Source: Lentisphaeria bacterium (GTDB taxonomy: Bacteria > Verrucomicrobiota > Lentisphaeria > Victivallales > Victivallaceae). Taken from it: DNA of 64,000 nt. Shown piece by piece: positions 36,049-38,973 of the stretch. The DNA lies in NCBI GenBank assembly GCA_017457105.1, contig JAFTIA010000104.1:24593-88592 (forward strand), written 5' to 3'. A program made the position numbers and the translations under genes. Numbering within the stretch: position 1 is the stretch's first letter; each line of letters starts with the position of its first letter. The notes beneath the pieces are model-generated. The model was not told the origin of the DNA. It ran no database searches and saw only the letters and a program-made list of their open reading frames with translations.

Positions 36049-37332
36049 ATGAGCAAGTCAAAGATCATTTGTGCTTTTTGCGGGCGGCCGGAATCCAAAA
36101 ATGTGATGATCGCCCGCAGCGGCATTGAGGGCGTGGGGATCTGTACGGATTGCCTGCGTACCGGATATACCAACTTGTGTGCAGAAGAACCTGCGGGCCA
36201 TGGGAAAGTTCCGGCAGAGATCCGGGCGCTGATCCGTGATATGCAGCTGCCCAAACCGGCAGATTTGAAGGCCAGTCTGGACAGTTACGTCATCGGGCAG
36301 GATCGAGCCAAAAAAACCTTGGCGGTGGCCGTTTACAATCACTACAAACGCCTCAAGGCCGGGTTGGAGAATGCGGAGGACGAGGCCGACGGTGTGGAGC
36401 TGGAAAAAAGCAATGTTCTGCTTCTGGGGCCCACCGGAAGCGGGAAAACGCTGCTTGCCAAGACCCTTGCCCGGATGCTGAATGTGCCTTTCTGTATTTG
36501 CGATGCCACGACTCTTACGGAAGCCGGGTATGTGGGCGACGATGTGGAAAATATTCTTCTCCGTCTGGTTCAGGCGGCGGATTACGATGTGGAGCGGGCG
36601 CAGATCGGGATCATTTATGTGGATGAGATCGACAAAATTGCCCGGAAAACGGAAAATGTTTCCATTACCCGTGACGTTTCCGGCGAAGGTGTTCAGCAGG
36701 CTTTGCTGAAGATCCTGGAAGGAACTGTTGCCAATGTGCCGCCGAAAGGCGGGCGCAAACACCCCCAGCAGGAATATTTACAGGTGGATACCTCCAAAAT
36801 CCTTTTTATCTGCGGCGGTGCCTTTGTGGGGTTGGATAAGGTCATCCAGCGGCGGTGCGGCAAGCAGGTTTTGGGGTTCAAACGCCTTGCGGAAGACGGA
36901 GCGGACCGGAAAGCCGAAGCGGATGCCGAAGCACTCCGTACCAATCCTCTTGACTTCTGCGAGCCGGAAGATCTGATCCGTTTCGGTCTGATCCCGGAAT
37001 TTGCGGGGCGTCTGCCGGTGATGGTGAATCTTTCCCCGCTGGATCGGGAAGCATTGATCCGGATTTTGACGGAACCCCGCAACTCTCTGGTCCGGCAGTA
37101 TCAGAAGTTGATGAAGATGGAGGATGTGGAACTGGAATTTTCGCAGGATGCTCTGGAAGCCATTGCAGACAAGGCGGTGGAACGGGGTACCGGTGCCCGC
37201 GGTTTGCGTGCCATTATGGAAGATCTGATGCTTGATGTCATGTACTCTGTTCCCTCCGAAGGTCCTCTCCGGAAGATCCGGGTGGATGGCGGTGCTGTGC
37301 GTGGTGAACACGCTCCGGAATTGGTGAAATGA
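36049..37332 (+). CDS. clpX: ATP-dependent Clp protease ATP-binding subunit ClpX
   Basis: 427 residues. The N-terminal zinc-binding domain has Cys8, Cys11, Cys32 and Cys35. The AAA+ part has Walker A GPTGSGKT near 127, the pore loop GYVGDD, Walker [20 protein letters not shown] (RKH loop) and sensor text [14 protein letters not shown] near 285 takes the place of the IGF loop that docks on ClpP. It unfolds substrates for ClpP. GAAGGA lies 10 bases before the ATG. Its stop overlaps the ATG of a protein kinase gene by 4 bases. Confidence 0.97.
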
Positions 37333-38399
37333 ACAGTACGGGTATGGCGACCCGAACCGTGACTGCCCGGCCGGATGAGGAAAGCGGATTGGTCAAACCT
37401 CCGGATTTCCGGCAGAAAACGAATCGGCAGTACAAGTTTATCCGGAGCATCGGCTTTGGCGGCATGAAGGCGGTATTGCTTGTTTATGACATGGATACCG
37501 GCCGGGAGGTTGCCATGGCGATGATGCCGGATTTTCAGAACCGCAGTCAGGCGGATTTGAACCGCTTTATGGTCGAAGCCCGGATCACGGCCCGGCTGGA
37601 ACACCCGAATATCATCCCTGTTTATGATATGGGGCTGGATAAGCAGGGGGCTCCCTTTTTTACCATGAAATATTTGCGGGGGGAAAGTCTGGCGCAGTTT
37701 CTTCAGCGTGTTCGGGAAGGCGATCCGCAGGCTGCGGCGGAGTATTCCATGGCTCGGGTTTTGCAAATTTTCATCCGCGTCTGCAATGCCGTCAACTTTG
37801 CCCATTCCCGTAATGTACTGCATTTGGATATCAAGCCCAACAATGTAAGTCTGGGGGATTTCGGGGAAGTTTCGGTGCTGGACTGGGGGCTTGCCGCGGA
37901 GATCATTATCGGGCCGGATGGCAAACGCCGTTTGCAGCGGCCGGTCAGTAAAGGTACGCCGGGATTTATGTCGCCGGAACAGATCATGGGCGGGACGGAG
38001 ATGGATGAACGGGCAGATATTTATTCTCTGGGGGCCCTGCTTTATACCATGCTGACCTTGCGGAATCCTTTGTGCGGCAAGAGCCCGGATGATATTCTGG
38101 AGGCGGCTATGCAGGACAGGATCCCGCTGCCGTCGCAAGCGGAGCCGGACCGGGATATTCCGGCGGCATTGGAGGCCGTGGTCCAGAAAGCCATGGCGTT
38201 CCGGCCGCAGGACCGTTATATTTCGGTGCAAGAATTGCGTGACGATGTGGTCAAATTTCAAGCCGGATTTGCTCCGCAGGCGGAAAATGCTTCTTTTTTG
38301 CGGCGTGCGGCGTTATTTATCAACCGCAATTTTGTGGTTACAGTTCTTTTGGGGATCATTGCGGTACTGGTAACGGTATTGGTTTTTGTCCTGCAGTGA
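37329..38399 (+). CDS. Membrane-anchored Ser/Thr protein kinase with WNK-like displaced lysine
   Basis: 356 residues: kinase domain about 35-310, one membrane helix about 332-354, almost no outer domain. The usual VAIK lysine is absent: the strand reads REVAMAMMP (Ala64 in its place). Instead Lys47 sits in the glycine loop, IGFGGMKAV, the position used by eukaryotic WNK kinases (GRGSFKTV). Other essentials are present: Glu83 of helix C (FMVEAR), HLDIKPNN with Asp167 and Asn172, DWG (Asp185) in place of DFG, and [10 protein letters not shown]. It should therefore be active. ATGA overlap couples it to clpX. Phosphorylation of Clp components or substrates is a possibility, not shown. Homologues in PVC bacteria commonly have DWG. 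Confidence 0.85.
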
Positions 38400-38490: not shown

Positions 38491-38973
38491 ATGGCCGGAG
38501 CTGCGAAATTTGATAAAAGTCTTTTTACCGCAAATTTCAAGCGGGATTATGTGGCGTTCAGTGCGGTGGCGATTTTTGTTTTGATCGTACTGGCAGAGGT
38601 CGGGCTTGCGGTGAGCATTCCCACCTACTTTGTCCGGTCGAATTTGTGGGAACTGCAGATTGCCCGGCAGGATTTGCTGAAGGATTTTGACAGTTTGCGG
38701 GGGCAATGCAACCGCTTTGTTGGAAAAACACCGGAACTGACCGAAGAAAACAATATTCTTGCATGGAATCTGAATTTGATGTCCAACTATATCCGGATCA
38801 ACCAGAAAAAACTTCAAAGAGACGAGGTCCGGAGTTTGAAGGAGGATCTGCAGCAGATGCGGCAGTTGCAGGGGCGGTTGCGCAGCGGGAAGCCGTTCAA
38901 TCGGCCGCTGAAATTGAAATCGGAAAAGATCCTTGCATCTTTTCGCAATGAATTGGCCCGGGGAGGGAAATGA
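38491..38973 (+). CDS. Hypothetical small membrane protein with coiled coil
   Basis: 160 residues. A short basic N-terminus, one strong helix (about 22-46, AVAIFVLIVLAEVGLAV), then a Leu/Gln/Lys-rich heptad-like region (about 55-135) and a basic tail. No family recognised. The topology (anchor plus coiled coil outside) and its place as first gene before hldE, kdsB, kdsA and an LptA-like gene suggest a role in the envelope. Its stop overlaps the next ATG by 4 bases. Confidence 0.55.
   Translation: MAGAAKFDKSLFTANFKRDYVAFSAVAIFVLIVLAEVGLAVSIPTYFVRSNLWELQIARQDLLKDFDSLRGQCNRFVGKTPELTEENNILAWNLNLMSNYIRINQKKLQRDEVRSLKEDLQQMRQLQGRLRSGKPFNRPLKLKSEKILASFRNELARGGK

Follow-up and report, generated by a model that had tools for sequence, protein, structure and literature searches.

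The kinase gene and its neighbourhood

The window, that is, the whole analysed stretch of 64,000 nucleotides, carries a protein kinase gene that directly follows clpX (Table 1). The kinase open reading frame matches the Pfam family Pkinase with an E value of 1.4e-37 (129.9 bits, against a cut-off of 31.7), its nearest solved structure among the fold matches is that of PknB (3f61), and its AlphaFold2 model reaches a pLDDT of 91 and a pTM of 0.88. Near the C-terminus, the model and the hydrophobic sequence agree on a helix that is likely a transmembrane anchor.

Table 1. Features of the kinase locus, numbered from the first letter of the window; residue numbers are those of the kinase, and "swapped" kinases are defined in the text.
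Feature	Positions	Strand	Basis or remark
clpX	36049..37332	+	immediately upstream of the kinase gene; its stop and the start of the kinase frame share 4 bases
Protein kinase gene, 356 aa	37329..38399	+	open frame; kinase domain approximately residues 35-311
Glycine loop GFGGMKAV, residues 42-49	37452..37475	+	alignment to PknB and WNK1
Lys47, relocated lysine, at the third-glycine position and first residue of strand beta-2	37467..37469	+	406/406 swapped kinases; strand 47-54 in the model
Ala64, VAIK lysine position	37518..37520	+	Ala 403, Gly 2, Thr 1 of 406 swapped kinases
Glu83, helix-C glutamate (equivalent to WNK1 Glu268)	37575..37577	+	418/418 swapped kinases; alignment
HLD, residues 165-167, with the catalytic Asp retained and the HRD arginine substituted	37821..37829	+	
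Ser174, polar, equivalent to the purine-floor residue Leu173 of PKA	37848..37850	+	
DWG, residues 185-187; Trp186 is equivalent to WNK1 Leu369, a chloride-pocket position	37881..37889	+	
Lys208, basic, immediately N-terminal of GTPG	37950..37952	+	
Hydrophobic C-terminal helix, residues 335-355	38331..38393	+	helix in the model and hydrophobic sequence
Gene of a 160-aa protein, after the kinase gene	38491-38973		one likely membrane helix; no Pfam match

The neighbourhood of clpX is a nearly constant feature in the taxonomic family of the window: in 33 of the 34 genomes examined (the exception being G014), clpX directly precedes the kinase gene in the same orientation, at a distance of -95 to +118 bases when starts are assigned by the first-start rule. 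The loci inspected for this context are the best-scoring ones, and thus a subset of the wider kinase family described below. No clpX was found within a flank of about 1.5 kb at nine loci that belong to other families of the order and have open frames of approximately 500 to 1050 aa. The gene order suggests that the kinase may be tied to ClpXP. The gene following the kinase is confined to the window's own genus among the loci L021-L084, where it was found at L021, at its copy L064 and at L022, and its product is therefore not a general partner of the kinase.

The relocated lysine and its distribution

In the alignment with PknB, the kinase sequence GFGGMK-AV is set against GFGGMS-EV and REVAMA-MM against RDVAVK-VL, which places Lys47 at the position of the third loop glycine and Ala64 at that of the VAIK lysine. 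The alignment with WNK1 (rat numbering) gives the same assignment, pairing K233 with K47 and C250 with A64, and furthermore matches E268 to E83, D349 to D167, K351 to K169, N354 to N172 and D368 to D185. An earlier note on this DNA had read the sequence as a kinase that lacks the beta-3 lysine and carries a loop lysine in the displaced position known from WNK kinases, and both alignments bear this out; since they agree, a misaligned lysine is ruled out. The gap-free alignment to WNK that had also been proposed holds from the loop to beta-3 (WNK1 Gly228 to residue 250), but not from beta-3 to the helix-C glutamate, where the spacing differs (18 against 19 residues).

The same arrangement recurs in a large set of homologues. 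A search found 1611 of them, and among the best 120, which were examined, all 119 readable sequences have the loop lysine and lack the beta-3 lysine, as the query does; the remaining one (P0012) is missing its N-terminus and thus unreadable at the loop. The set was widened by two further protein searches from distant members and by genome loci, giving 547 collected rows, of which 536 have letters at the four scored positions. These comprise 431 kinases with the loop lysine, termed swapped here, and 105 canonical ones with the beta-3 lysine, and correspond to 507 distinct kinases. Of the latter, 406 have the loop lysine only and 101, among them a degenerate kinase in the canonical row L192, the beta-3 lysine only, while none has both and none has neither. 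As three protein searches, one contig scan and three of the genome searches started from swapped queries, the set is biased towards the swapped family, and its informative part is the absence of any mixed lysine type; the genome loci alone contribute 65 swapped and 94 canonical kinases. Every relative without a loop lysine accordingly keeps a normal beta-3 lysine, and the conservation of Lys47, for which the earlier note had proposed to search, is complete in the swapped kinases. Between residues 34 and 190, position 47 is the sole one that is basic in 100% of the swapped and 0% of the canonical kinases. Its counterpart in beta-3 is almost always Ala in the 406 swapped kinases (403, with Gly in 2 and Thr in 1), and never Met, His, Arg or Cys. 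Three swapped kinases (L089, L090 and L092, from G237, G223 and G129) carry a basic residue immediately ahead of the position of the lost beta-3 lysine (IAKAIM, IAKAVM and VARAEV), perhaps a second relocation or a chance occurrence.

In the window's own genome, 13 kinase places were located and 11 rows are readable, of which the query is the one swapped kinase (L003 and L005 being the same kinase). A single-sequence contig scan gave seven loci, none of them swapped where loop and beta-3 could be read. Across the phylum of the window, a DNA pattern of GGMK and AMA at fixed spacing is present in at least 84 of 387 genomes, a lower bound because the pattern misses variants; the reversed control pattern gave no match. 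One match, in G206, falls in what looks like a hydrophobic protein and probably arose by chance. Single genomes hold up to 10 exact copies (G223 and G308). The swapped family spans the order and class of the window and extends to further classes of the phylum; going by the names, the class is Lentisphaeria and the phylum Verrucomicrobiota. Named holders include Lentimonas, Pontiella, Lentisphaera and Haloferula, and the swap is also carried by P0133 and P0140, which are labelled Planctomycetota.

Two further observations were made in passing. The genomes G310, G308, G223, G237 and G258, all from one family of the class, show a large expansion of eukaryote-like kinases, a first look having given 98 to 148 candidates in each genome, partly scored; G308, G223, G237 and G258 each hold 7 to 10 exact swap-pattern places, G310 lying outside the pattern search. 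In addition, some swapped kinases are long and carry varied extra domains, such as LRR_4 in L104 and, in the precomputed lists, PF06439 and TPR families.

Catalytic residues, predicted activity and regulation

Pseudokinases are commonly recognised by, among other signs, a missing beta-3 lysine (PMC12599244), and the kinase might in principle be an ATP- or partner-binding switch or scaffold without phosphate transfer, in which Lys47 merely steadies the loop. The absent HRD arginine and the polar purine floor described below would fit such a protein. Against this stands the conservation of the catalytic apparatus: in 418 swapped kinases, the helix-C glutamate, Pro216 and Glu217 are present in all 418, and the catalytic Asp, Lys and Asn, the DFG Asp and the helix-C glutamate are kept together in 416. 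Glu83 would be expected to drift if it had lost its partner, yet it is invariant, and the family appears to be maintained rather than decaying. Simple pseudokinase decay is disfavoured by this conservation. Moreover, the same double change renders PKA hyperactive: when its beta-3 lysine is replaced by Ala and combined with G55K, PKA reaches approximately 400% of wild-type activity without PDK1, while the corresponding combinations with Met or His are inactive alone and reach 1.84% and 2.5%, respectively, with PDK1 (PMC5130182). The pseudokinase interpretation is therefore unlikely in our estimation, in line with the remark in the earlier note that the protein, with its HLD, DWG and SPE motifs (all of which are indeed intact), need not be a pseudokinase.

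We consider it probable instead that the kinase is active, with Ala at the VAIK position and an invariant loop lysine that would grip the ATP phosphates and pair with the helix-C glutamate in the manner of WNK. In WNK kinases, the loop lysine (position 55) is required for catalysis and touches ATP like the usual lysine (PMC1821047). By analogy, Lys47 would take the place of the beta-3 lysine at the phosphates, and Glu83 is its likely salt-bridge partner.

Three further positions distinguish the swapped from the canonical kinases. Residue 166, the position of the HRD arginine, is Leu in 391, Phe in 14 and Met in 1 of the 406 swapped kinases and never Arg, whereas Arg is found in 78 of 101 canonical kinases. 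Residue 174 lies two residues after the catalytic-loop Asn and was matched to PKA Leu173 by counting from Asn171. A hydrophobic letter stands there in 11 of 406 swapped compared to 97 of 101 canonical kinases, the leading letters in the swapped set being Gln (243), Asn (93), His (31) and Ser (18). In PKA, Leu173 is part of the purine pocket and of the catalytic spine (PMC4718504). The residue before GTPG is Lys or Arg in 378 of 406 swapped, but only 12 of 101 canonical kinases. Because the swapped kinases are all related to one another, the counts demonstrate conservation from a common ancestor onwards and not repeated co-evolution, and the co-occurring changes may reflect shared history rather than separate fits. 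In this context, the canonical kinases L105, L106 and L124 (the gene of L091), which stand near the swapped family, combine HLD and a Lys or Arg before GTPG with a hydrophobic residue 174 and a normal beta-3 lysine. This combination suggests that HLD and the basic residue predate the lysine move; it is possible that L091/L124, L105 and L106 (from G166, G307 and G309) are intermediates or revertants. L105 additionally has WD40 repeats in its C-terminal half.

Regulation would have to differ from that of WNK1. In inactive WNK1, Glu268 bonds Arg348 of the HRD motif (PMC1821047), and this latch presumably cannot form in the swapped kinases because the HRD arginine is absent. With neither this arginine nor a leucine-lined chloride pocket, both off-switches of WNK1 appear to be missing, and control of the presumably active kinase would lie elsewhere than in the latch. 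The WNK1 residue Ser382, the activation-loop autophosphorylation serine, is aligned to Val206, in a part of the loop that is gapped. In most kinases the HRD arginine contacts a phosphorylated activation loop; HLD together with the basic residue before GTPG likely makes activity independent of this contact. A polar purine floor likely alters how the nucleotide is held, or which nucleotide, and could also result in weak binding of ATP. The kinase is probably cytoplasmic, tethered to the membrane and produced together with ClpX, and ClpXP or its clients would be the first candidate substrates.

The earlier note offered as a guess that the kinase might sense chloride, for which the displaced lysine of WNK kinases leaves room. 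In such a sensor, chloride bound at the halide site would block autophosphorylation. The lysine does occupy the WNK position, and Gly187 and Leu188, the equivalents of residues that contribute backbone amides in WNK1, are mostly kept. Chloride in WNK1 is held by the amides of Gly370 and Leu371 and by the side chains of Phe283, Leu299, Leu369 and Leu371 (PMC7606576). These side chains correspond to Val98, Phe111, Trp186 and Leu188 of the query, so that one of four is kept, and in the 431 swapped kinases most of them are replaced: the Leu369 equivalent is Trp in 423 and Phe in 8, the Leu299 equivalent (residue 111) is Phe in 422 and Tyr in 9, and the Phe283 equivalent is Val or Ile in 429, while Leu371 is kept in 418. 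In WNK1 itself, the substitution L369F relieves the inhibition and yields a chloride-insensitive, more active kinase (PMC7606576; PMC13397483). Chloride sensing of the WNK type is thus very unlikely. As Trp186 is also common among the canonical relatives (65 of 105), the Trp did not arrive with the swap.

Origin of the swap and relation to known kinases

The swapped kinases score well on a profile built from 57 DWG kinases with a beta-3 lysine (median of 319 bits for the 431 swapped kinases, the lowest being 215), compared to 234 bits for PknB and 106 for WNK1. In a careful tree of 69 rows, the DWG kinases, swapped and canonical alike, fall together on one side, with PknB and three further kinases from the window's own genome on the other (support 100/98). 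Columns 47, 64 and 166 were excluded from all trees. Both results argue against descent of the swapped family and WNK from a shared ancestor that was already swapped. For such descent, it can be said that a tree constrained to unite a single WNK1 sequence with the swapped kinases was not rejected by an AU test (p 0.955), and that it surpassed the result of the free quick search by 44.6 log units. This test is weak, however, as the WNK1 branch is very long (4.79) and the quick search is poor there. The absence of WNK from the 50 fold matches listed is uninformative on its own. Taken together, common descent with WNK is extremely unlikely, and the lysine move is probably a convergence.

Within the DWG kinases, the trees need one or two changes and are compatible with a single origin of the swap. 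A first tree, of 75 of 100 representatives of 418 swapped kinases and 36 representatives of 38 canonical ones, places the swapped rows on one side of a branch with an SH-aLRT support of 97. In a second tree, of 45 of 53 swapped representatives of 431 and 53 of 105 canonical rows, the canonical L091 and L106 fall inside the swapped rows with weak support, and a tree constrained to keep the swapped rows together surpassed the result of the free quick search by 48 log units (p 0.946). The careful tree requires two swap changes, with L107 floating; a single change suffices in 30% of its bootstrap trees.

The swapped family is thus probably a new, convergent variant of the WNK solution. A fuller picture can be drawn tentatively, and as a whole it is possible rather than probable: bacteria would have arrived independently at the WNK solution as an entire clade that reaches from the window's class into other classes of the phylum, with the residue pair that hyperactivates PKA and without either known off-switch of WNK1. 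Its polar purine floor would shift the nucleotide preference, perhaps away from ATP, and in the window's own family the enzyme would be a membrane kinase that is always ready and coupled to ClpXP. If the relocation is as proposed, the lysine move would be separable from chloride sensing, as the swapped kinases appear to combine a moved lysine with no chloride switch. Swapped and canonical relatives, some of them in the cultured genera Pontiella, Lentisphaera and Lentimonas, offer material on why a kinase would shift its most conserved lysine.

In the literature consulted, we found no bacterial family of this kind described; an earlier mention is possible in the 42-family atlas of O'Boyle, in Kwon 2019 or in Piala 2014. 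In the sections consulted, a review of bacterial pseudokinases names WNK and POMK as comparisons only (PMC12599244). Among the families it treats, ActPs1-3, DLHK, GLW, CP1 and DYD, several lack the beta-3 lysine, as the present kinase does, and DLHK has conserved arginines in beta-2; those sections describe no loop-glycine lysine for them, and several are without HRD or DFG, the Asp residues of which are kept here (PMC12599244). The small-molecule kinases of the CAK-chloro type resemble the swapped family in that a shift of the positive charge from position 72 to 55 has been proposed for them, but they have Arg at 55, Met at 72 and Phe in place of the helix-C glutamate and belong to a different kinase family (PMC1821047). 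A later case of lysine relocation is that of the eukaryotic sugar kinase POMK, which has its own loop lysine (PMC12599244). POMK likewise lacks the beta-3 lysine and, by its description, uses a conserved lysine somewhere in the glycine loop; it differs in having lost the helix-C glutamate, in pairing the loop lysine with the Glu of a DLD motif, and in phosphorylating O-mannose instead of protein (PMC12599244).

Closer at hand, the PknB-like DWG kinases of the same genomes (e.g., L011) differ from the swapped ones by a beta-3 lysine and by Gly, Ser or Ala in the loop, and the canonical rows in general by a frequent HRD and a purine floor of mostly Met or Leu. WNK1 shares with the kinase the lysine at the third loop glycine, a beta-3 strand without lysine, and the retained helix-C glutamate, catalytic Asp and DFG Asp. 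It has, however, Cys in beta-3 where the kinase has Ala, HRD (Arg348) instead of HLD, and Leu369 and Leu299 in the pocket instead of Trp/Phe and Phe/Tyr. WNK1 is also far in sequence, as its profile score indicates, and the putative C-terminal membrane anchor sets the bacterial kinase apart.

PKA retains HRD and the activation-loop phosphate. Its engineered form, with the beta-3 Lys changed to Ala and G55K, has the same residue pair as the kinase and the same Ala-Met-Ala in beta-3, as translated from the primers quoted in PMC5130182, and differs in being man-made and eukaryotic and in the presence of Leu173 (PMC4718504). If the present reading is true, the swapped family would constitute another natural case of lysine relocation, with hundreds of members that carry the very pair introduced into PKA.
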